Source: Candidatus Aquidulcis sp. (GTDB taxonomy: Bacteria > Chloroflexota > Anaerolineae > UBA4142). Taken from it: a stretch of 64,000 nt of DNA. Below, in pieces: positions 15,623-59,727 of the stretch. The notes beneath the pieces are model-generated. The model worked only from the letters and a program-made list of their open reading frames with translations. It was not told the DNA's origin and made no database searches. A program made the translations under genes and the position numbers. Every line of letters starts with the position of its first letter. Position 1 is the stretch's first letter. The stretch spans positions 55,602-119,601 of the forward strand of contig DYJA01000001.1 in assembly GCA_020723345.1 (NCBI GenBank), read 5' to 3'.

Positions 15623-16831
15623 CTACAATCCTGCTTCGCTCCGCAGCGCTTCCGCCTTGTCCATCTTTTCCCACGGCGCGTCGATGTCGTGTCGCCCAAA
15701 GTGCCCGTACGCCGCCGTCGGCTGATAGATCGGACGGCGCAAATCGAGATCGCGAATGATCGCCGCCGGGCGCATGTCGAAATGCGCGTTGATCAGTTCG
15801 ACGATTTTCTCGTGCGGCACTTTTTCCGTGCCGAACGTTTCGAACATGATCGACAGCGGACGCGCAACGCCGATCGCGTACGCGACTTGCATCTCGAAGC
15901 GATCGGCGAGTCCCGCCGCGACGACGTTCTTGGCGACATAGCGCGCCATGTACGCGCCGGAGCGATCCACTTTCGTCGGATCTTTGCCGGAGAACGCGCC
16001 GCCGCCGTGCCGCGCGATGCCGCCGTACGTGTCGACGATGATCTTGCGCCCGGTCAATCCGGCGTCGCCCACCGGTCCGCCGATGTTGAATCGCCCAGTC
16101 GGATTCACATAGTACTTGGTTTTCGCGTCGAGCAAATTCGCGGGCACGGTCGTACGAATCACTTGCTCGATCACGTCGTCGTGAATCGTTTTTTGCGTCA
16201 CTTGATCGGTGTGTTGCGTCGAAATGACGACCGTGTCAACGCGCACGACTTTGCCGTACGCGTACTCGACCGTCACTTGCGATTTGCCGTCGGGACCCAG
16301 GTACGGCAGCGCGCCGCATTTGCGCGCGTCGGCGAGTTTCTTGACGAGTTTGTGCGCGAGCGAAATCGTCAGCGGCATGTACTCCGGCGTTTCGTTGCAC
16401 GCAAACCCGATCATCATGCCCTGATCGCCCGCGCCGATCTTGTCGATCGGATCGCTGCCGTCGCCGCCGCGCGTTTCCAGCGCGGCGCTGACGCCGCGAT
16501 CAATGTCCGGCGATTGCTTTTTGATCGCGGTCATGATGCCCGCGGTTTTGAAATCGAGCCAGTACTTGGAATCGGTGTAACCGATCTGCTCGATGGTTCG
16601 GCGGACGACTTCGTACGGATCGAAATGCGCGGTCGTCGTGATTTCGCCCATCACCGCGACCAAGCCGCCGCTGCACGCAGCTTCGCACGCGACGCGCCCG
16701 TACGGGTCTTGCTGGTAAATCGCGTCCAACACGCCATCCGAAATCTGATCGCATAATTTATCCGGATGACCTTCGGTCACCGATTCCGAAGTCAACAGCA
16801 ACTTGGGCGCGGACATGAATGTAGTGCTCAT
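15623..16831 (-). CDS. metK: S-adenosylmethionine synthetase
   Basis: The 402-residue enzyme makes SAM from Met and ATP. Clear family motifs are [18 protein letters not shown] at the N-terminus, [12 protein letters not shown] (ATP site), and the P-loop-like [19 protein letters not shown] near residue 260. The ATG at 16831 has AAGGAG 5 nt upstream. The GTG two codons earlier would overlap that site. It is the last gene of the riboswitch-headed methyl-cycle operon and is followed by a strong terminator. Confidence 0.97.
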
Positions 16832-21682: not shown

Positions 21683-21851
21683 CTCTCATCTTCCAAGCCG
21701 CGGCGCGCGCATTTCGCGTTGGCTTGCCGGAATTGGCACCGCGTCCAGAGATTGGAGATTGGAGATTGGAACGCTCCAATCTCTAATCTCTAATCTCCAC
21801 ACCGGTTGCCGAGGTTTCACAGGGCCGTTCCCTCCACCTCTCTGGATGAGT
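21683..21851 (-). ncRNA. SAM-I (S-box) riboswitch
   Basis: On the minus strand the P1 5' strand ACTCATCCAGAGA leads into GGTGGAGGGAACGGCCC, then TGTGAAACCTCGGCAACC, which is the core of the S-box with kink-turn and pseudoknot bases. After a long P3 hairpin come GGTGCCAATTCCGGCAAGCC, P4, and GGAAGATGAGAG as the P1 3' strand. High SAM should stabilise P1 and allow the terminator at 21644-21670, lowering expression of mtnA to metK. The P3 arm (21748-21798) is built of tandem GAGATTA/GAGATTG units and is much longer than usual. Confidence 0.95.
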
Positions 21852-21877
21852 GTCCAGTTCTATTCAATTGCGAGCCG

Positions 21878-47874: not shown

Positions 47875-49784
47875 CACCACTCGACCTCGAACAACGGGAC
47901 GCGATTTTGTGGAAACGCTTTGCCGCGCGCATCAACCACGACGAGTCGCTCGCGCGTTTGTGAATCGTACATGCCAACTTCCAAAAAATATTTTCCCGAC
48001 GGCGCGTCGGCGGGAATTGTCAATGCGTACTCGTCCACGATGATCGTGTCGGTTTCCCAATCGGTCGTGAGATACGTTCCGCTGACCGGCGGGTTGTCCT
48101 GTTGACTCCACAATTTCCCATCGGCGTCGTAAAGATGAACGAATACGGTTGCCGCGCGCGCCGGACGCGTGATCGCTTGCCAGTACAGCGTCACGCGCAC
48201 GGTCATTCCCGGTCGCGCGATTTTTCCGCGCGTCTCGGAATCGAACGCGCGCAAGCGAATTTGTCCGGCGAACGTCGCGTTGATCGGTTCGGCTTGGCGC
48301 AACGCGACCGACGCGGGTAGATAGAGCGCGAGGCGCAAGCCGCGCGGTTCGGACGCGCTGACGAGGCGCGCGTGACGCCGCAGCCAGGTTTCGACCACGC
48401 CGTCGGTGTCCCAGGTGGAGTACGGCGCGGCTTGGAACCACACGCGCGCGTACTTCGCCGTCACGCGTTGCAAATCGGCGTTGACCTCCGCTATCGTCGC
48501 GGAACCCGAACGCGGCAGCAGCACGCGCGGCATGCGATCTTGCAAATAGTACGGCAACGCGGGATCGGGATAATTTTGGATCAAGACATCGCCGGGCTGT
48601 GCTTGCTCGTTGAGCGTTTGCATAAAGGTATGCCAATCCGGACTGCGCGCAAATTCGGGTACGTGAAAATAGTTGTTGAGCGCGTAACCGTCGGCGATCA
48701 CAATGAACGCGGCGGCAACAATCGCGATCCAGCGGCGCCACGGCGAGTCCCAGAGATTCGCGAGACCGCGCGCGACGAGTAGCGAGAACGCGGCGGAAAT
48801 GTACAGGACGTAGCGTTCGTCGAACAATGGAAAGCGGACGAGTGAATAAGTGAAGAACGCGCCCATCGGCACGCCGAGAAAAATTACCAACGCGACGCGT
48901 CCCGCGCCTTCCGCCGAATTTTGAGCGAACGCGCCGTACAGAAAAATCGCGAGAAAGCCGAGCGACAGTAGCGTGCCAATTGTCGGCTCGACCCAGGCGG
49001 GCGCCATCCGCGTATCGGTGCGTCCGACCGTAAATGTGACGAGCGCGCGCTGGCACATTTCCAACAACGACAGCGGCGGAATGAAATCGGAATGAAAAGT
49101 CGTCAGCAAAGGCAACGCGACGATCACCCAGGGCAGAAAAAGGATCGCGATCGCGCTCGCGCTCGCCGCAAATGCAAAGCGCATGGTTGCGCGCAAATCG
49201 ATCGGCCGCGTGAAGATCCAATAAATCCAGAGGATTCCTTGCGCGAGTAGGATGAACGCGAAGAAGTAATGAAAGTACAATCCGACTGCGCTGGCAATAA
49301 TGTACGCGATCCAGTGCGCCCCCCGCGCGCCTGGTTTGATCAGATGTAGAAATAAGTTGAACGAGACGAGTGTCGTCACGGTAAGCGCGGAGTACATATA
49401 AACATCTTGCGCGTCCCAGATCAGAAACGGATTGAGCGCGATCAACGCTGCACCGATCAACGCGATTTGCGGTCGACGCGGAAAAAGTTGTCTGCCCAGC
49501 GCGTACGTAAGCGCAACGCTCAAGACGCCGACAAAAATCGCGGGAAAACGCGCGGCGAGTTCCGAGATGCCGGCTGCCAGCATCCAGAAATGCAGGATGA
49601 GAAAATAGAGCGGCATGTGCGGATCGCTCGTGACAAACACACGTACGATGTCCTGCAGGTCTTGCCGCGCGAGGAACAAACTTGACGCTTCATCCGCGCG
49701 CAGCGGCATTTCTGCCGCGCGATAAAAACGGAGCGCGGCAGCAAGCACAAGAATCGCGAGCAATGCCCAGCGCGCGCGCGTCAT
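47874..49784 (-). CDS. GT39/ArnT-like membrane glycosyltransferase with YTVF-type domain
   Basis: The 636-residue protein begins ALRFYRAAEMPLRADEASSLFLARQD, where ADE is the catalytic acidic loop of PMT_2 family enzymes. DPHMPLYFLILHFWM and IALNPFLIWDAQDVYMYSALTVTTLVSFNLFL follow, both classic for GT39 relatives. The C-terminal part (about 500-630) has the domain AATVFVHLYDADGKLWSQQD to LEVGMYDSQTRERLVVVD. The ATG at 49784 overlaps the upstream stop (ATGA). The longer frame to 49946 is only the reverse reading of the previous gene's end. Confidence 0.87.
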   Translation of the reverse strand: MTRARWALLAILVLAAALRFYRAAEMPLRADEASSLFLARQDLQDIVRVFVTSDPHMPLYFLILHFWMLAAGISELAARFPAIFVGVLSVALTYALGRQLFPRRPQIALIGAALIALNPFLIWDAQDVYMYSALTVTTLVSFNLFLHLIKPGARGAHWIAYIIASAVGLYFHYFFAFILLAQGILWIYWIFTRPIDLRATMRFAFAASASAIAILFLPWVIVALPLLTTFHSDFIPPLSLLEMCQRALVTFTVGRTDTRMAPAWVEPTIGTLLSLGFLAIFLYGAFAQNSAEGAGRVALVIFLGVPMGAFFTYSLVRFPLFDERYVLYISAAFSLLVARGLANLWDSPWRRWIAIVAAAFIVIADGYALNNYFHVPEFARSPDWHTFMQTLNEQAQPGDVLIQNYPDPALPYYLQDRMPRVLLPRSGSATIAEVNADLQRVTAKYARVWFQAAPYSTWDTDGVVETWLRRHARLVSASEPRGLRLALYLPASVALRQAEPINATFAGQIRLRAFDSETRGKIARPGMTVRVTLYWQAITRPARAATVFVHLYDADGKLWSQQDNPPVSGTYLTTDWETDTIIVDEYALTIPADAPSGKYFLEVGMYDSQTRERLVVVDARGKAFPQNRVPLFEVEW

Positions 49785-52180
49785 CGTCCGGCTCCACGCC
49801 AATTGATTTCGACGTGATCGCTGTCGCCGACCGGCAGGCGTTCGCCGGTGTCCGCGCGATACAACCCAACGATGATGCGCTGCGCGCTCGTGCCCGGCGC
49901 AAGCGCGAGCGTGTAATCGTCGCGCACTTGTTCGCCCGTGTCCCACAACGAAGTTGGATAGGGGCGTGGCTGCCGATCCGCTTGCGCGATGATTTTGCCG
50001 TTCGCATCGAGCGCGTGGACGAATACGGTGTAATCGCGATCCGGCGCCGCGCGCGCGCGCCAGTACAACGTCAGTTCAAGTGTGTCTTGATTCGCGCTCA
50101 AGTCGTACCCGGTCAATTCGATTTGATGCCCGAAATTCGCGTCGACGCGCGTGCGCGGCGTGAACGCGGCGCGCTCCGCGTCGCGCGGCGCGATTTTTAT
50201 CGCGGTCAACTCCACGTGGCTTTCGTCGCCGCCAGATAATTGCAGCCGTTCGCCCGGTTTGCCAACCGGATACGCGCCCACTTGTATCTCGTATTTGCCC
50301 GACGGCGCGTTCGGCGCGATCGGAATTTGGACGACATCGCGCAGCGTATCGCCGGGTTTCCAGTACACCGTCGGAAACGCGCCGCGCGCCGGAATTACAT
50401 CTGCGCCGCCCGCGCTGCGATTGTCTTGCGCGATCACGTGAACGAACACGCGGTACGATTCGTTCATCGGCGCGAGCGCGCGCCAATAGAGCGCGACGCG
50501 CAGCGTGTCGCCGGGTTTCGCCGCGCGCGTTTCGAGATCGTAGCCGAGCAGTTGAAATCGATCCGCAAAAGTCGCCTGCGCCGGATTCGCAATGCGCGCG
50601 AGGTCGTTTGGCGATAGCAGCGCCGGTCGCGCGTACGCGGGCAGAGTGTACGCGAAGGGGACGAAGAGTGCGAGTGTAAAAAATGCGGAAATGACAAATG
50701 AGCAAATGACAAATGACAAATTCGTAATTCGAAATTCAAAATCCTGCCCTGAGCCAAGTCGAAGGGTCGAAATTCGGATGACGAAACGCGCGAACTCGAC
50801 TAATCCGGCGACAAGAAACAGCGCGATGATGCTGATCGCGGGAAAGAGGTAACGTCCTTGATCTGCGCCGGTGGTTGTGCGGATGAATTGAATTTGCGCG
50901 ACGAGAATGAACGCGAGCCACGCGCCCAACACGAGAATCGAATCTCGAATCTCGAATCTCGAATCTCGAATGATTGAGAGAATCATCCCGACGAAAGCGA
51001 CGGACGTCAGTACGCCCAGCGTGATCAAAATCGCTGGCGAAAAATCGCTGGGTGTTGGTCCACCCCAAAAGGTTTGCCACAGCCATGGCAGCGAAATCTG
51101 AAAAAGTTCTGGCGGCGTGAGCGGTCCCGCGCGCGGAAAAATTGCCGAAGTGATCATCAAACGATACGCGAGCGGATCGCCATAGAGCATTTGATTGCGA
51201 ATAAACCACCATCCGCTGATCAGTGCGATGATTGCGAGCATCGTCGCGTTGCCGATGATCGCGAAACGCGCATCGCGCGCGCGCCACGCGGCGATGATCA
51301 GCACGAGCATCGAAAAAGGAATCAAGCCAAGCGCGCTCGTTTTGGTCAAGATTCCCAAGCCGATCAACGCGCCAAGAAACGCGGCAGATCGTGTCATTGC
51401 GAGGAGCGTCCTGAGCGGAGCGACGTTCGTCGTCGCGGAGTCGAAGGATCGCGACGAAGCAATCCCCATAGTGCGATTTGGAGATTGCTTCGCCGCTGCG
51501 CGGCTCGCAATGACGGTTTGGCGTGCCGTTTTTTCGGTGAGCAAGCGTACCCACATCAGCAACACAAGCGACGAAAACGCCGAAAGCATCGCGTCGTTGG
51601 AGACGAGCGCGCTCGCGAAGAGAAAACTGGGATTGAACGCGACAATCGCGGCGGCGGCGAGACCTGTCAGGTTTCCGAAAACCTGACAGGTCTGGTACGT
51701 TGCCCACACTGTGACCGCGCCGCAAAGAATCGAGAGCAGGCGCGCGAGGTGAACCGCGAGCGTCGTGCGCGTGTACGGAAAATTCTCCGAATCGGTGTGA
51801 TAATAAATGTTGCGCCCGCAGCACGCCGGATCGCCGACGAACGTCGCGGCGTAGTTGCGCCACAAGTGTTGTTCGTGATCCGATGTGTCAATCGGCGCGA
51901 CGACGAGCGCGACGAGTGAATAGTACAACGGCGGCTGCCAGCCCTGATGTCCGGCGATTCCGCCGCCCGGCTCGAACAACTGCACCGGCAGTGCGCGTTG
52001 ATCCGCGATGAATTTGGCGTAGCGAAAATGATCGTCTTCGTCGGGACCTTCAAACAATGGAATGATGATCGAATAGAACAACGCGAGCGCGATAAAGACG
52101 CCGAGCAAAACAATCAATGGCTTGGCGATGCAAAAATTTCTGAATTGCGTTTCGGATTTATTCGCGATTGCCAATTTCAA
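49781..52180 (-). CDS. GT39-like membrane glycosyltransferase with two YTVF-type domains
   Basis: The 799-residue protein has LFEGPDEDDHFRYAKFIADQRALPVQ and GGIAGHQGWQPPLYYSLVALV at the start, a membrane core, and two C-terminal beta domains (YRVFVHVIAQDNRSAGGAD and YTVFVHALDANGKIIAQAD). An in-frame palindromic element at 51392-51514 adds VIASRAAAKQSPNRTMGIAS. A second palindrome at 51661 gives the residues around FGNLTGL, and two further arrays lie at 50688-50745 and 50936-50972. No ATG or GTG precedes the first membrane helix. TTG at 52180, overlapping the upstream gene by 23 nt, is the only plausible start. Confidence 0.83.
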   Translation of the reverse strand: MKLAIANKSETQFRNFCIAKPLIVLLGVFIALALFYSIIIPLFEGPDEDDHFRYAKFIADQRALPVQLFEPGGGIAGHQGWQPPLYYSLVALVVAPIDTSDHEQHLWRNYAATFVGDPACCGRNIYYHTDSENFPYTRTTLAVHLARLLSILCGAVTVWATYQTCQVFGNLTGLAAAAIVAFNPSFLFASALVSNDAMLSAFSSLVLLMWVRLLTEKTARQTVIASRAAAKQSPNRTMGIASSRSFDSATTNVAPLRTLLAMTRSAAFLGALIGLGILTKTSALGLIPFSMLVLIIAAWRARDARFAIIGNATMLAIIALISGWWFIRNQMLYGDPLAYRLMITSAIFPRAGPLTPPELFQISLPWLWQTFWGGPTPSDFSPAILITLGVLTSVAFVGMILSIIRDSRFEIRDSILVLGAWLAFILVAQIQFIRTTTGADQGRYLFPAISIIALFLVAGLVEFARFVIRISTLRLGSGQDFEFRITNLSFVICSFVISAFFTLALFVPFAYTLPAYARPALLSPNDLARIANPAQATFADRFQLLGYDLETRAAKPGDTLRVALYWRALAPMNESYRVFVHVIAQDNRSAGGADVIPARGAFPTVYWKPGDTLRDVVQIPIAPNAPSGKYEIQVGAYPVGKPGERLQLSGGDESHVELTAIKIAPRDAERAAFTPRTRVDANFGHQIELTGYDLSANQDTLELTLYWRARAAPDRDYTVFVHALDANGKIIAQADRQPRPYPTSLWDTGEQVRDDYTLALAPGTSAQRIIVGLYRADTGERLPVGDSDHVEINWRGAGR
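50688..50745. repeat. ACAAATG and ATTCGAA tandem repeats in frame
   Basis: Units GACAAAT, GAGCAAAT and ATTCGTA/ATTCGAA are read as FEFRITNLSFVICSFVI, forming part of a predicted membrane segment. A short CCTGAGC/GTCGAAGG piece follows immediately. Confidence 0.78.
50936..50972. repeat. ATCTCGA tandem repeat in frame
   Basis: Five units of GAATCTC/ATCTCGA encode RDSRFEIRDS in a loop of the glycosyltransferase. Confidence 0.8.
51392..51514. repeat. TGTCATTGCGAGG palindromic element in frame
   Basis: Outer arms TGTCATTGCGAGG and CTCGCAATGAC, inner CGAAGCAATCCCC/GGAGATTGCTTCG, and CCTGAGCGGAGC/GTCGAAGGAT pieces. It is closely similar to the elements at 23779, 29215 and 29908. Confidence 0.88.
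51661..51692. repeat. 14-bp-arm palindrome inside a coding gene
   Basis: Perfect arms GACCTGTCAGGTTT and AAACCTGACAGGTC with loop CCGA are read in frame. The layout and the AGGTTTC/GAAACCT core resemble the metK terminator palindrome at 15585. Confidence 0.8.
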
Positions 52181-54815
52181 ATTGTCCTAGTTCAATCACA
52201 TCATCCGGCGACTGTTCGCCGGTTGGGTACGTTACCGGCAAGCGCTCCAATTCAGGATAATGATACATGCCGACGATCACAGAATATTTTCCGGGCTTGA
52301 GATCGTCGGGCAGATTCAGCGCGACGCGATCTACGATCGTTTCACCCGGAACCCACAAGAACGGTGAATTCAGTCCACCGCCCGGCACGCTGTCGTATTT
52401 CAGAATTGCAACGCCTTGCGCGTCGAGCAACTGCACGAACACGGTGTAATCATCATACACATTTTCGTCAGTTTGCCAAAACAGCGTCAACGGAAAACGT
52501 GACCCAGGAATTAGTTTGGGCGGCGTGTCGTATCCGAGCAGACGAATTTTTTGTCCGATCCGCGCGTTGAGCGAATGTGCGATGCGTGGATCGGCAGACG
52601 ACGCGACGCCGCGCGCAAACGCGATCACACCGACCGGGACGAATCCACGCGCGTCCGCAGATGCGACTTGGAGTTGATAACGACCGAGCGCGATTGCCGC
52701 GACCGGCAGATCGTACGCGTCCTCGACGATTTCGTTCGCGACCCAGGATGCAGCGTAGCCGGTGCCGTAGCGCGGCATTTGTTCGCGCGATGCCCACACC
52801 TTGCCCGCCTCGTCCACCAAACGCCAGGTCAGCGGCTTGTCTTGCGCCGATGCTTTGACGTGCCAGTACGCGCGCAAGCGCAGCGACCGCGTCGGTTCGG
52901 AGACGCGCCACGCGTCCGATTCCCACCGCGCGTTTTCGACGCGCACGCCGATCATGTCAAGCGCGGGCGAAACGGTGACGCGCGTTGTTTGCAAATCGCG
53001 CAGCGGCGCGGTCAACGCGGTAAATGCGATTGGCGTGAACAGCGCGCCGAGCAGCGCGATCAGCCCGATGATCGCGCGCGCGTCGGACTCGCGGCGGCGC
53101 AACGCAAGCGCGATCAAACCGATCAGCGTGAGCAGACTTGCGATAGAAAGCGTAGCGCCGATCTGACGCGGCGGCGTGTCGCTCTGGACGAACGCGACGC
53201 GATGATCGCCCGCCGGTACGTCAACCGCCAACAGCCCTTGCGGCGTGTTCGCGTACGCGACGGCGGCTTGATCGTCAATCGTGACGCGCCAATCGGGGAA
53301 ATAAAACGCGCGCAGAGAGAGCGAGATTGGTTCCGACGCGGAGACGCTCATTTCGCGGCGCGCGGCATCGTATCGCGTCAACGCAATCGTCGCGCGCGGC
53401 GCGTTCGTTTGCGGCGCGCGGTAGGTCGCGAGGTCGCGTACTCTGAACGTCGCGGGCAGATACTCGCCCCAGGTCGTCGCGCCGATGAATTTCGAGGATG
53501 CTTCATAGCGCGCGATGTGCGCGAGCGTCGGCGCGTTGTCGGGCAGAAAAATTTCTTGCGGCGCGAGATTGCCCAGACCCGCGAATATCATCACGCCGGC
53601 AATCGTCGCGATCAGAGTGAACTGAAGAATACCGGCTTGACGCGCGGACAAGTTGAATTGGCGCGGAATGAGCGCGAGCGCGTTGACGCTGACGGCAACT
53701 CCCAGACTGATCAGCACGGAAACGCGCCAGGGATATTGGATCATCAGCGCGAACGGCACAGCAAGCCACAGATCGCGCGCCAGTTCGGACATGGCGAGCG
53801 CGGCGACGAACGCGACGACGCCGAAGAAAATGATCGTCGCGCGAGCGGGCATCGGTTTGCGCGCGGCGAGCGCGATGGCAAACGCGAGCGCACCCAACAC
53901 GATCGGTACAAGTCCAAGTGCGAACGGCGCGGACGTGTACTGATAAAGCCAGGATGTTTGAACGAGATCGGATAATTTCAAAAAATGATCGGGAAAGACC
54001 GCGCCGATCGGAACGCCGCCGCGCCCGATGCGGACGAGCGACAATTCCGCGATGAAGGGCAACCAGTAAAACGCGGTGAGTCCGGCGGCGATTGAAATCG
54101 CGGCAACAACTACACCAAGCCTGCCCTGAGCAAAGCCGAAGGGTCTGCCTACGCAGACTGAGAAATCGCGCAATTCTCGTAATTCCAAAATGACGTACAA
54201 AATAATAACCGGCGCGGCGATGGCGAGCGTCAAAATGTGCGCGAGCATCAGCAATGCCAGAAAAATCGCGGCGAGAATGATCGCGCTGATCGCTGGCGCG
54301 GTGATCGCGCGCCGGAGCGACCAGACGACCCAGGGCAACAAAACCAACCCGAGCGCTTCAGTGCTGACGCCGCGCGTGTAAATGTCGGTGAGCAAATAGG
54401 GGAAACAGACGTACCCGACGGCGGTCAGGACGCCTAGCGCGCGCGCGTTTTCGCGCCGCGCGTCGCGAAAAATTTCCGCGCCGAGCGCGTACGCGCCGAG
54501 CGCGGCGATGGCGATCATCGCGCTGAACGCGATTTTGAGCGCGGTGACAAAATCAAATCCGAGCAGATGAAACGATTCGATCAAGTAAGTGGAGAGCGGC
54601 GGATAGTAATTGAAGAGCGGATAGCCCAAGCCGAACGCGAGATCGTTCAGCCAGCGCGGGTAAAGCATTCCTTGCCGGATCATCTCGTCGAGCGCGAACG
54701 CGTGCGACAAACGCAGTAATCCATCGTCGGAATAATAAAACGACAATTCCCACAATGGTCGCGCGGCGAGTCCGGTTAGCGCGATGAGAAATGCGAATGG
54801 AATCCAGCGGCGCAT
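52158..54815 (-). CDS. PTPS-related membrane protein, predicted glycosyltransferase, with YTVF-type domains
   Basis: The 885-residue protein has SFYYSDDGLLRLSHAFALDEMIRQGMLYPRW and LGYPLFNYYPPLSTYLIESFHLLGF. This is the pattern of the PTPS-related integral membrane family often found with GT39 proteins. Despite that family name it has no pterin-synthase fold. A long membrane core is followed by extracytoplasmic domains (about 420-560) and two YTVF-type domains at the end (PLTWRLVDEAGKVWASRE and YTVFVQLLDAQGVAILKYD). A small repeat at about 54118-54155 is read in frame as RPFGFAQGRLG. The start is ATG at 54815, one nucleotide after the upstream stop. Confidence 0.83.
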   Translation of the reverse strand: MRRWIPFAFLIALTGLAARPLWELSFYYSDDGLLRLSHAFALDEMIRQGMLYPRWLNDLAFGLGYPLFNYYPPLSTYLIESFHLLGFDFVTALKIAFSAMIAIAALGAYALGAEIFRDARRENARALGVLTAVGYVCFPYLLTDIYTRGVSTEALGLVLLPWVVWSLRRAITAPAISAIILAAIFLALLMLAHILTLAIAAPVIILYVILELRELRDFSVCVGRPFGFAQGRLGVVVAAISIAAGLTAFYWLPFIAELSLVRIGRGGVPIGAVFPDHFLKLSDLVQTSWLYQYTSAPFALGLVPIVLGALAFAIALAARKPMPARATIIFFGVVAFVAALAMSELARDLWLAVPFALMIQYPWRVSVLISLGVAVSVNALALIPRQFNLSARQAGILQFTLIATIAGVMIFAGLGNLAPQEIFLPDNAPTLAHIARYEASSKFIGATTWGEYLPATFRVRDLATYRAPQTNAPRATIALTRYDAARREMSVSASEPISLSLRAFYFPDWRVTIDDQAAVAYANTPQGLLAVDVPAGDHRVAFVQSDTPPRQIGATLSIASLLTLIGLIALALRRRESDARAIIGLIALLGALFTPIAFTALTAPLRDLQTTRVTVSPALDMIGVRVENARWESDAWRVSEPTRSLRLRAYWHVKASAQDKPLTWRLVDEAGKVWASREQMPRYGTGYAASWVANEIVEDAYDLPVAAIALGRYQLQVASADARGFVPVGVIAFARGVASSADPRIAHSLNARIGQKIRLLGYDTPPKLIPGSRFPLTLFWQTDENVYDDYTVFVQLLDAQGVAILKYDSVPGGGLNSPFLWVPGETIVDRVALNLPDDLKPGKYSVIVGMYHYPELERLPVTYPTGEQSPDDVIELGQFEIGNRE

Positions 54816-54816
54816 A

Positions 54817-57255
54817 TCAGCGACCTGCGATTTCTATGGGCAATCGCCACGCATCATTCGGCTGACGCGCGCCGTTCGCGTCGAAGATTGGCAAACGCGC
54901 GCCGCTCGCCGAATCGTACACGCCGAGCGCGAGCGTGTACCGACCGGGCGAAATTCCGGGCGGCAAGATGAACGCGTGCGCGTCGGCGATGAGGTCGCCG
55001 GGCAGCCACCATGATGTTGGCGCGTTGCCATTCTGCGGCGCGCTGTCGCGCTGCGCGATTAGATTGCCGCTCGCGTCGAGCAAATGAATGAACACGGAAT
55101 AATCTTGCGGCGTCGCGCGTTCCGATTTCCAGTACAGTATGACGGACAACGATTCTCCGGCGCGGTCGAGATCGTAACCCAGGAATGAGATGAGCGCGGG
55201 TTCGCCCAGTTTGGCGGCGACGGGATTTTTGATCGCGCTGGGATTGACGGACGCGCGCGCGACGGTGAATGGATCGAGCGAGAGACGATCCGTCGCGCCG
55301 ATCAACGGCAGCAACAGATCGGCGGCGGTGCGATCCAGCAAACTGATCTCGACGCGATATTTGCCGTCGTGCGCGTCGGCGGGGACGCGCAGATCGAACG
55401 CGTCGGGGATGAGCGCGCCGCGCCGCCACAAACTTGTCGGCGCGGCGTCGAGCGCGGGATGCGCAACGCGTTGCGCGAACGATTCACCGCGCGCGTCGAA
55501 CAGGTTGACCGCGAGAAAATAATCGGTGTTCAAATCGCGCAGCGCTTGCCAATACAAAGCGATCCAGACTTGCTCGCCGGGAGTGACTGTCGTCGGCGTG
55601 AGCGTGTAGCCGAAGAGGCGGATCGCGTCGCCGAATCGCGCGTCGAGGCGATGCGTAGGTTGAATGTCCGCGATATATTCCGGCGTGTTGTCAATTTGCA
55701 ATTGCGACGCGACGCCATCGCCGAATTTGTTCTTGATCGGCTGACCGTTTTTCAACAGTGTTTTGAGCCGCGCGATCTGCGCGTCGTTCAGCGGCTGCGG
55801 AATGAAAATGCCGTCGGGACCGACGACGATGTTCGCGCGTTGAACGGTCGTCGTGACGAACCACGCGGACGATTGCGGCGAGCGCGGTATGAATGGAATA
55901 TTTTGCGGGTAACGTTTTGCCATCGCGAATTGCATTTGCGGCGTACCGTAAATGCTCACTGGCACGATCACGTTCGCCGTTTGGCTCAATGACATTACGC
56001 GCGCGACCGTCGCATCAAGCGAACCCTCGAACGCGTCGTACGTCGCGCGGCTGGACGCCCACACGTCGAAATAATCGCGGCACGTCAGCGCGCCGCCAAA
56101 AATGATCGCGCTGAGCAAGAGCGGCGTCCATCCGAATCTTGGAACGACGCGTTGCCAAACCTGGGTTAGTCCGTCGGCGGACAGAATGATGATCGCAGGA
56201 AGCGCGTTGATCGCGCGGAGAAAATGCGGCGCGTCGACGGTTAGCGCGGTCGGCAAAAGATTCAAGCCGATCCAAATCAGCAAGAGCGAATAGCGCGGCG
56301 TTGCGAAATGTGTCAACGCGATGACGACGCCGATCCAAAATCCGACGATGCCGAGCAGATCGAGCGCGGGGCGTCCGGGTAAATTGAGGAGTGGATTTAT
56401 GTCGCCGCGGTCGACGAACATGCGCGCGACGCGAATTATGTTTTCGGCAAGCCCGATAGGATCGTGCGCGGCGAAGATCGACACGTCGCCGGTGCGTAGC
56501 GCGAATTGACCGGGGTGTTGCCAATAATGAATCGCCAGCGGCGCGAAGACGATGCCCGCGACGATTGCCATTACGGCGAATCCGATCAGCGCGGTGCGCC
56601 AGTCGAATGTTGAAAATCGCGCGCGCAAAATCAGGCGCGCGATTCCAGCCGCAACTGCGAAGACGGCGAGCGTGACCGGAATAAAGCGCGCGGCGGGGTA
56701 CGTGTACAATCCGATGCCGATCAGCGCGCCGGCTATCGCGAAATAGCGCGCGCGTCCGGTTCGCCAACCGCGCCAGAATGTCCACGTTGCGAGCGCGCTA
56801 AACAGCGGAACGAAAATCACGCGGAACGACAGCCGCGACACATCGAGATGCCAGAACGAAACGGCGAGCATTCCGGCGGCGAGCGCGCCGAGCCATTTCG
56901 CGCGCGCGGTTTCGCGGAAAAGTTCAGCCGCGACGCGATAGATCGCCGGAACGGTCGCGACGCCGACGAGCGCAGGGACCACGCGCAATGCCCAGTCGTT
57001 CGCGCCCCAGAAGAAAAACGCGAGCGCTTGCAAGTAAATCATCAGCGGCTCGCGCCCGTAATCGCCGGGAAAGAAGATCGGGAGCGCGCCGGTTTGCGCG
57101 ACACGCAGCGCGTCGTACGCATCCCACGCTTCGTCCAAGTACAGCGCGGGCGGCAATTCCGCCAAGCGATAGGCGCGCAGAAAGAGCGCGAGCAGCGTAA
57201 ACGCGAGGACGAACAATTCGGGTTGGGGAAATTGACGCGCCGAACGACTAGTCAT
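54817..57255 (-). CDS. GT39 (PMT_2) membrane glycosyltransferase with two YTVF-type domains
   Basis: The 812-residue protein is the clearest PMT_2 member here: FLRAYRLAELPPALYLDEAWDAYDALRV with the catalytic DE, then GREPLMIYLQALAFFFWGANDWALRVVPALVGVATVPAIYRVAAELF. The membrane core ends near residue 410. An extracytoplasmic region follows, with two C-terminal domains (YFLAVNLFDARGESFAQRV and YSVFIHLLDASGNLIAQRD, ending LALGVYDSASGARLPIFD). It is the first gene of a six-gene overlapping or near-overlapping run ending at 44072. No ribosome binding site is evident before the ATG at 57255. It lies just after the terminator of the GT2 gene. Confidence 0.9.
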   Translation of the reverse strand: MTSRSARQFPQPELFVLAFTLLALFLRAYRLAELPPALYLDEAWDAYDALRVAQTGALPIFFPGDYGREPLMIYLQALAFFFWGANDWALRVVPALVGVATVPAIYRVAAELFRETARAKWLGALAAGMLAVSFWHLDVSRLSFRVIFVPLFSALATWTFWRGWRTGRARYFAIAGALIGIGLYTYPAARFIPVTLAVFAVAAGIARLILRARFSTFDWRTALIGFAVMAIVAGIVFAPLAIHYWQHPGQFALRTGDVSIFAAHDPIGLAENIIRVARMFVDRGDINPLLNLPGRPALDLLGIVGFWIGVVIALTHFATPRYSLLLIWIGLNLLPTALTVDAPHFLRAINALPAIIILSADGLTQVWQRVVPRFGWTPLLLSAIIFGGALTCRDYFDVWASSRATYDAFEGSLDATVARVMSLSQTANVIVPVSIYGTPQMQFAMAKRYPQNIPFIPRSPQSSAWFVTTTVQRANIVVGPDGIFIPQPLNDAQIARLKTLLKNGQPIKNKFGDGVASQLQIDNTPEYIADIQPTHRLDARFGDAIRLFGYTLTPTTVTPGEQVWIALYWQALRDLNTDYFLAVNLFDARGESFAQRVAHPALDAAPTSLWRRGALIPDAFDLRVPADAHDGKYRVEISLLDRTAADLLLPLIGATDRLSLDPFTVARASVNPSAIKNPVAAKLGEPALISFLGYDLDRAGESLSVILYWKSERATPQDYSVFIHLLDASGNLIAQRDSAPQNGNAPTSWWLPGDLIADAHAFILPPGISPGRYTLALGVYDSASGARLPIFDANGARQPNDAWRLPIEIAGR

Positions 57256-57296: not shown

Positions 57297-58037
57297 CTAC
57301 GCGTTTTCGTGTTTTTGCAAATTTGGATCATTCGGGTCGACGAGCGGCGGCGCGCTGCCGAGCAAACCAAAGCGTTTGCGAAAGAGGAAAAACAAATTGT
57401 AAAAGCCGTCGCGCCAAATCCGCAATTTGCTGACGCCGTGCCGCTCTTTGTAGTAAATCGGCAACTCTTTCGCGCGAATGATTTTCTTTTTCGACATCGC
57501 TTCGAGTTTGATCTCTTCGGAGAACGCCATTCCGTCACTCGTCAGATTGAGATGCGTCAAGACCCAGCGGCGCAAGACCCACATGCCCGATTGCGAATCG
57601 CGTACGCGAAACCAAAACAGAATCCAGATGAAGAAATTGAGCACGTCGTTGCCAAAGACGCGCAGCCAGTTGCTCGGTTTGTCTTTGTGTCCGGTGCGGT
57701 CGCAGGTGATGAAATCGAATCCTTCGTCGATCATCACGTCGAGCAGGATCGGAATGAAATTGCGCGGGTAGGTGCCGTCGGCGTCCATCGTGACGATGAT
57801 GTCGCCGGTCGCCGCGCGCAAGCCGGTTTTGTACGCCGCGCCGTACCCTTGTTTGGCTTCGCAGATAACTCTTGCGCCGAATTGTCGCGCGACTTGCGCG
57901 GTGCAATCGGTCGAGTTGTTGTCGACGGCGATCACTTCGTCTACGATTTTCAAATCGAGATCGCGATAGACCTCCGGCAAGCCGTGTTCTTCGTTCCAAC
58001 AAGGCATGACGAGTGAGATGCGATGATTTTTGTACAT
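57297..58037 (-). CDS. Family 2 glycosyltransferase, DPM1-like polyprenyl-phosphate sugar synthase
   Basis: The 246-residue GT-A protein has ISLVMPCWNEEHGLPEVYRDL, EVIAVDNNSTDCT, ATGDIIVTMDADGTYP with the metal-binding DAD, and YYKERHGVSKLRIWRDGFYN typical of DPM1/dolichol-phosphate mannosyltransferase-like enzymes. These make polyprenyl-phosphate sugars, the donors used by GT39 enzymes, so this gene probably feeds the membrane transferases of the locus. There is no C-terminal membrane domain. The ATG at 58037 overlaps the stop of the thioredoxin-like gene (TAATG). The longer frame to 58490 is a shadow of that gene. Confidence 0.9.
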   Translation of the reverse strand: MYKNHRISLVMPCWNEEHGLPEVYRDLDLKIVDEVIAVDNNSTDCTAQVARQFGARVICEAKQGYGAAYKTGLRAATGDIIVTMDADGTYPRNFIPILLDVMIDEGFDFITCDRTGHKDKPSNWLRVFGNDVLNFFIWILFWFRVRDSQSGMWVLRRWVLTHLNLTSDGMAFSEEIKLEAMSKKKIIRAKELPIYYKERHGVSKLRIWRDGFYNLFFLFRKRFGLLGSAPPLVDPNDPNLQKHENA

Positions 58038-58528
58038 TAAGGCGTTAGCACTCCGCGGAGTTGGATTTCCAGTTCGGTTTCGGTGAGCGTTCCATATTTT
58101 TTCCAGACCACCTTGCCGGTCTTGTCGAGCAGGAAAAAGTTGGGCTGCGCCAGATAACCCAGACGATCTTTCGCGTTCTTGGTCGCCGCGTTGTCGATGT
58201 CGAGATAAACGAAATCGATGCAGTTGCCGTACTTGGCTTCTAGCCCATGCACGATGGGCTTGAGCGCGCGACAGGTCACTCACCAGTACGCAAAGAACTC
58301 GACGAGTTTGGGTTTGCTCCCGGCGACGAGTTTCTTCGGATCGTCGGAACGAAACTCGTCGCCGGGGACTGGATACGTCGCCGGGCAGGATGTGACGTTT
58401 GATGTTGTCGTCGCGACGGGCGGGGCGACAGGTGCTTTCGTCGGCGGCGGCGTTGGCGTTGCCACAGTCGCGCATGCGACGAGCACGCACGACAATGCCG
58501 CCGTCAAGATCATCTCTCGCATTTTCAT
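58037..58528 (-). CDS. Thioredoxin-like lipoprotein with in-frame TGA at the active site, putative selenoprotein (UxxC)
   Basis: Reading through one TGA gives a 163-residue protein. Residues 1-20 are a lipoprotein signal (TAALSCVLVAC lipobox), then a Pro/Thr-rich linker, then a thioredoxin fold. The active site reads EFFAYW-[TGA]-VTCRALKP, where family members have WCxxC, so the TGA (58282-58280, codon 83) replaces exactly the first redox Cys. The frame and the family pattern continue on both sides, including a cis-Pro loop LAQPNFFLLDKTGKVV. A hairpin AGCCCAT-CGTGC-ATGGGCT begins 19 nt after the TGA, at the place and with the loop G expected of a bacterial SECIS. An AGGTG site lies 5 nt before the ATG at 58528. 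A pseudogene or base error is the alternative. Confidence 0.75.
58242..58260 (-). promoter_or_regulatory. SECIS-like hairpin downstream of the in-frame TGA
   Basis: A perfect 7-bp stem with loop CGTGC starts 19 nt after the TGA, so the TGA-to-loop distance is 26 nt. A G lies among the first two loop bases. These values fall within the ranges described for bacterial selenocysteine insertion elements. Confidence 0.6.
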
Positions 58529-59727
58529 AACTTCACCTGATAACTTTCGACAGCGCGCGGCGCGGCTTGCATTACTTCGGGCGAAAGCCCGTGCCGCAAC
58601 TCTGCCCATTTCAACGTTGCCCATTCTTTCAAAATGACCGGGTACATCAACGGGTTGAACAAAATATTGACGGTCAAAAAACATTCGTACGTGCAATAGC
58701 ATTTCGTTTTGGAAATCCACGCGCGCATCTCGTCCGCTCTGCGCGAGCGCCAGATCTTTTTGAAATCGTAATCGAAGTCGCGCACGTTGCCGAGAAGTTG
58801 CTCCTCGCCCATTTGCTCGCACGCGAGCACGTCGCCGTTCGCGAACATGTTGCCGCCGAGCGTGCCGGCGTAACAGGGAATCACGAACCGGCGTTCTTTC
58901 ACCATTTGCGTGATCAGTTTCGGGCGAATGATCCGTTTGGCGTTGATGAAATCGCCGAAGGGCAATTTGTAATAGCCCGATAGTTCACGCGCTTTGTTTT
59001 CGCGCTCCAGGCGATAATGGAAATCGAGATAGTTATCGATGTCGAATTCATTCGCGTGCGGATCGATCGGCGGCGTGTATTTCGCAGCAGGGTCTTTCGG
59101 TCCGCCGCGCAAGAGCAGCGTGAACACGGTATTGACGCCGACGTACGTTTTCAAATAGTCGTAGAGTTCGTTCAGCTTCTCGTGATTGTACGCGCTGACT
59201 GCGATCTGAATGCACGCGGAAAAATTCTTGTAATGTTTTTCGAGCACGCGCAGTTCGCGGTACGTCCGGATCGCGCGGTCGAACAAGCCCTTGAAGCCGC
59301 GAAACCGGTCGTGGTCTTCGCCGACGCCGTCAATCGAAATGTCAATGTGCAAATCGAGATCGGGACACGCGTCGAGCATTTCGCGCGTGCCGTCGACGAC
59401 GCGGCTGGTGAGCGAGCCGTTCGTCGGGATGCCGACGTTGGGCGCGTGGTTGTTCTTATGGAAAATCTTGACGATCTCCGGCAAGTCTTTCCGCAAGAAC
59501 GGCTCGCCGCCGGTCGGCGTGAAGAAGATCATGTCATCCATCGAGCGGCTGACTTTTTCGATTTCGTCAATCGTCAGTTCGCCGACGTGGCGTTCGTGCG
59601 AGCCGAGCAAGCAGTGCCCGCAGCGCGCGTTGCAGTTCTTGGTCACGAACAGCACAAAGTATAGGGGCGACGCGCCGCGTTTGTAGAGGATGCGCGGCGC
59701 GAATTTCATATAGTTCATCAGAGACAT
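58525..59727 (-). CDS. Radical SAM protein with SPASM-like C-terminus
   Basis: The 400-residue protein has the radical SAM cluster motif CNARCGHC (CxxxCxxC) in LYFVLFVTKNCNARC, then FFTPTGGEPFLRKDL, DLHIDISIDGVGEDHDRFRG, and a C-terminal Cys-rich part. That part (CYAGTLGGNMFANGDVLACEQM and KCYCTYECF) fits a SPASM or Twitch domain binding further 4Fe-4S clusters. Such enzymes modify peptides or act in cofactor or sugar chemistry; the substrate is not evident. The start is put at ATG 59727 with AGGA about 12 nt upstream. The stop overlaps the start of the thioredoxin-like gene, linking the two. Confidence 0.88.
   Translation of the reverse strand: MSLMNYMKFAPRILYKRGASPLYFVLFVTKNCNARCGHCLLGSHERHVGELTIDEIEKVSRSMDDMIFFTPTGGEPFLRKDLPEIVKIFHKNNHAPNVGIPTNGSLTSRVVDGTREMLDACPDLDLHIDISIDGVGEDHDRFRGFKGLFDRAIRTYRELRVLEKHYKNFSACIQIAVSAYNHEKLNELYDYLKTYVGVNTVFTLLLRGGPKDPAAKYTPPIDPHANEFDIDNYLDFHYRLERENKARELSGYYKLPFGDFINAKRIIRPKLITQMVKERRFVIPCYAGTLGGNMFANGDVLACEQMGEEQLLGNVRDFDYDFKKIWRSRRADEMRAWISKTKCYCTYECFLTVNILFNPLMYPVILKEWATLKWAELRHGLSPEVMQAAPRAVESYQVKL

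Follow-up and report, generated by a model that had tools for sequence, protein, structure and literature searches.

We analysed a 64,000-nt stretch of DNA (the window) from Candidatus Aquidulcis sp., whose genome assembly comprises 6.34 Mb in 132 contigs and is 95.5% complete. The minus strand of the window carries a single thioredoxin reading frame interrupted by one TGA (Table 1). The frame runs from an ATG at 58528..58526 to a TAA at 58039..58037, and its sole internal stop, the TGA at 58282..58280, is codon 83 and falls at the first Cys of the thioredoxin W-C-x-x-C site, giving W-TGA-V-T-C-R. With the TGA read as U, the product is MKMREMILTAALSCVLVACATVATP...KPKLVEFFAYWUVTCRALKPIVHGLEAKYGNC..., ending at the TAA, and this sequence contains the cis-Pro loop with its QP. 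When the window was scanned for coding frames that cross a TGA, the gene at 58528..58037 came clearly first and was the only strong case; a much weaker second frame, on the plus strand at 16422, is probably a shadow frame. The original prediction, which left the strand unstated, had the coordinates, the active-site motif, the hairpin and the overlaps with both neighbours correct. Its warning that a conventional reading would split the gene was also borne out, since a mechanical ORF caller gave the two halves separately.

Table 1. Features of the predicted selenoprotein locus, in window coordinates.
Feature	Position	Strand	Details
Radical SAM/SPASM protein, upstream neighbour	58525..59727	-	PF04055, PF13186; 4-bp overlap of its stop TGA with the ATG (ATGA)
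Predicted Sec-containing thioredoxin-like lipoprotein CDS	58037..58528	-	163 residues, U83, stop TAA; PF00085 E=1.5e-10
Putative signal peptide with lipobox L-V-A-C19	58472..58528	-	read by eye
In-frame TGA, predicted Sec (U83) of the W-U-V-T-C active site	58280..58282	-	TGA in 110/154 homologues, Cys in 44
Cys86 (TGT), predicted resolving residue of UxxC	58271..58273	-	second TGA in nine homologues
Putative bSECIS hairpin	58242..58260	-	7-bp stem, 5-nt loop CGUGC, TGA-to-loop 26 nt, -9.2 kcal/mol
GT2 glycosyltransferase, polyprenyl-phosphate hexose transferase-like, downstream neighbour	57297..58037	-	PF00535; TAATG overlap
Membrane protein with PMT_2 domain, next in cluster	54817..57255	-	PF13231; matches in L079-L082

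The radical SAM gene is conserved upstream in relatives L079-L084, and the GT2 and membrane protein genes in L079-L082. The TAATG junction is also conserved in the latter four relatives, which makes plausible the proposal that readthrough of the TGA would preserve operon coupling. At 49781-57255 on the minus strand, a run of three large membrane proteins, of which two or more are PMT-like, lies beside GT2 enzymes; this is likely a surface glycosylation cluster, and its order with the predicted selenoprotein gene is kept in relatives. The cluster is retained within the taxonomic family and partly within the order, while more distant members have other neighbours. A client of the protein may conceivably be part of this cell-surface sugar work, a link that is weak because the neighbours differ beyond family and order. 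Elsewhere in the window, a SAM riboswitch (RF00162, 77.7 bits) lies at 21683-21852 on the minus strand.

The thioredoxin fold claimed for the product was supported, and its putative lipoprotein signal was visible in the sequence. The Pfam Thioredoxin family PF00085 matched at 41.4 bits (gathering cut-off 23.5), and an AlphaFold model was confident over residues 60-160, the core of the protein, and matched PDB thioredoxins at a TMt of about 0.8. The lipobox L-V-A-C19, read by eye, follows a hydrophobic start, and the pattern L-x-[AS]-C is kept in close relatives.

The assembly was also searched for the selenium machinery that the original prediction had named as a check, and selA, selB, selC and selD were all found above their family cut-offs. 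The tRNA-Sec lies at C70:51449-51539 (76 bits against a cut-off of 47; called by ARAGORN as tRNA-SeC with anticodon tca), and SelB, SelA and SelD scored 361, 594 and 357 bits against cut-offs of 242, 268 and 125, respectively. The selD gene (L046, G000:C72:4090-5022) carries one TGA of its own, in the segment YAACAGUASKLG, and is thus probably a second selenoprotein gene in this genome.

A published model of bSECIS elements specifies a loop of 3-9 nt, a stem of 4-16 bp, a G in the first two loop positions, a spacing of 16-37 nt and a minimum free energy of -7.5 kcal/mol or lower (PMC13188914). The hairpin of the window gene begins 19 nt past the TGA, with 58260-58254 pairing with 58248-58242 around a loop at 58253-58249. 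As predicted, it fits the model fully, its G being at loop position 2. By a simple perfect-stem test, under which many of the failing Sec members missed the energy limit only, the full model fitted 72 of 110 Sec members, one of 44 Cys members and 7% of the codons of neighbouring genes. In one Sec member, L156, the only hairpin is a weak one displaced by a single codon. Across 17 representatives, 94% of the cells of the 7-bp stem were paired and six of the seven pairs showed changes on both sides; the covariation score was 0.48 compared with 0.22 after shuffling, and none of 500 shuffles scored as high. RNAalifold recovered the same helix unaided. Since the stem sits within codons of a conserved peptide, we also recoded the genes synonymously: Sec members averaged 6.3 pairs where 4.1 were expected, and Cys members 2.9 where 2.6 were expected. 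For the window gene by itself, the seven pairs gave P = 0.004, and the family-wide signal was far stronger. Loop positions 2-3 were GU (loop N-G-U) in all 110 Sec members, compared with a G at the corresponding place in 21 of the 44 Cys members. The same GU fixes valine at the codon in the loop (58250-58252, minus strand) in 110/110 Sec members, a residue that varies in the Cys members; here an RNA signal seems to have shaped the protein sequence.

Of 396 genomes of the class searched with a profile, 155 had a match; 80 stretches were fetched, and 154 distinct homologues were read. Their active sites were UxxC in 101, UxxU in nine and CxxC in 44, the last group including ordinary thioredoxins; the column of U83 accordingly held TGA in 110 and a Cys codon in the remainder. 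The nearest relatives (34-73% identical) all had TGA: in a set of 60 relatives, it was present at each of the twelve loci that reached 34% identity or more across most of the protein length. Named relatives were Chloroflexota metagenome assemblies, several titled Anaerolineae or Anaerolineales, and among 400 genomes drawn from across the phylum, matches at E <= 1e-18 fell within the class only. Some genomes encode two Sec-form paralogues (L102 and L018 in G003; L021 and L103 in G019). The Sec form was accompanied by tRNA-Sec in 89 of 91 genomes, the two exceptions being 69% and 78% complete, compared with three of ten close Cys-form genomes of our own choosing, seven of which were without it (Fisher P = 2e-7). 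The alignment of close homologues proposed originally thus gave TGA at this column, or Cys mostly where tRNA-Sec was missing. In the tree, Sec member L137, from a genome with tRNA-Sec, and Cys member L142, from a genome without it, were sisters with 99% support, and L142 retains a 6-pair relic of the hairpin.

That TGA is one base away from both TGC and TGT speaks for a misread Cys codon or a nonsense mutation in a pseudogene. However, independently assembled genomes of many genera have TGA at this very codon, which rules out a base-calling error. Nearly every pairwise comparison with the window gene gave a dN well below dS, before the TGA as well as after it, so the region past the TGA is under protein-level selection. 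The hairpin covaries, the overlap with the downstream neighbour is kept in relatives, and none of the relatives, checked for the further decay that would mark a pseudogene, looks to be decaying. We consider either explanation extremely improbable. It is just as hard to credit that the locus holds two genes, a truncated lipoprotein followed by a C-terminal half starting from the GTG at 58279, as the separate entries of a mechanical ORF caller would have it. Neither half by itself contains the whole thioredoxin fold or the whole active site, the TGA and the GTG are adjacent with no spacer or ribosome-binding site between the halves, and the 44 Cys homologues each form one continuous protein.

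Since the frame goes on normally past the TGA, the codon could also be read in some other way, with UGA generally reassigned to Cys or Trp or else read through unspecifically, and this too is very unlikely. TGA terminates neighbouring genes as an ordinary stop, so that a Sec reading depends on position, and homologue L022, whose active site holds two TGAs, appears to stop at a third. Furthermore, the Sec form tracks tRNA-Sec, and in Cys members the hairpin is at its synonymous expectation. Pseudogene, sequencing error, general recoding and a pair of genes were therefore all rejected, on the grounds of conservation, the hairpin, the tracking of tRNA-Sec and the Cys homologues. As a whole, the evidence is best explained by a selenoprotein gene in which the UGA at codon 83 is read as Sec, a reading to which we assign a probability of roughly 0.96.

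The nine UxxU homologues (L022, L030, L037, L135, L165, L169, L173, L179 and L180) carry their second TGA 9 nt past the first, and the same hairpin lies at 26 and 17 nt, both spacings falling inside the allowed 16-37 nt. It is likely, judging from this arrangement, that one bSECIS serves two successive Sec insertions and yields a thioredoxin that may form a diselenide; the third TGA of L022 appears to be its actual stop. The tree is weakly resolved, with UxxU members in several different parts of it, and its well-supported branches force at least four changes; the second position seems to have switched between Sec and Cys several times.

On the selenoprotein reading, SelB with Sec-tRNA(Sec) would bind the N-G-U loop 19 nt downstream of a ribosome at UGA codon 83 and insert Sec, a step that we infer because the sel genes and a conserved hairpin are present. 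The lipobox suggests that the product would leave the cytoplasm, receive a lipid at Cys19 and stay on the outer face of the membrane. There, with Sec83 attacking and Cys86 resolving, it would reduce extracytoplasmic proteins at disulfides or related forms of oxidised sulfur. Re-reduction would probably proceed via a CcdA/DsbD-type membrane protein, and the DsbD_TM (CcdA-type) protein encoded in the genome is, by analogy with periplasmic thioredoxin-like systems, a candidate reductant.

Because standard ORF calling splits the gene, many Chloroflexota annotations probably miss a class-wide family of redox selenoproteins. As a test bed the family is well suited, with Sec, Cys and UxxU forms side by side and a loss of tRNA-Sec that is matched by a decaying hairpin. 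It could be used to measure what selenium gains for a membrane-anchored thioredoxin and whether one SECIS drives two insertions.

Thioredoxins with a UxxC site are established selenoproteins (PMC13188914, PMC1794560), and Sec-thioredoxin (Trx, PF00085, UxxC) is listed as experimentally supported (PMC13188914). Thioredoxin-like UxxC selenoproteins are common in marine data, where UxxU is already listed for Prx-like selenoproteins (GOS; PMC2398784); in the open papers available to us, we found no description of UxxU in a thioredoxin of the PF00085 type, which is no proof of absence. Like these Trx-like and Prx-like thiol:disulfide oxidoreductase selenoproteins (UxxC, UxxU), the window protein would be a thioredoxin-fold redox selenoprotein; the distinction drawn between them is one of classification, with the former assigned to PF00578, COG0526 and others and the window protein to PF00085. 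The UxxC in a thioredoxin-like fold is likewise shared with SaoT (NF040730), HUIPC (NF047660) and GOS_C (NF045500), none of which matched the window protein in an NCBIfam scan at E up to 0.1. No family in that scan scored over its cut-off: the TrxA equivalog TIGR01068 (thioredoxin) gave 46 bits against a curated cut-off of 96.8, and TsoB, the only selenoprotein model to appear, was far below its own (E=0.018). A search of open papers for Anaerolineae and Chloroflexota, which again proves no absence, gave no description of the lipoprotein clade. Among the closest known systems is Sec-thioredoxin (Trx), with which the window protein has in common the PF00085 domain, Sec at the first position of CxxC and a bSECIS downstream. 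Unlike it, the window protein has a predicted lipoprotein signal and a linker of 40-50 residues, and it belongs to a new, apparently unnamed lipoprotein clade of Sec-thioredoxins that was found in one Chloroflexota class only (Anaerolineae, by the titles of named relatives).
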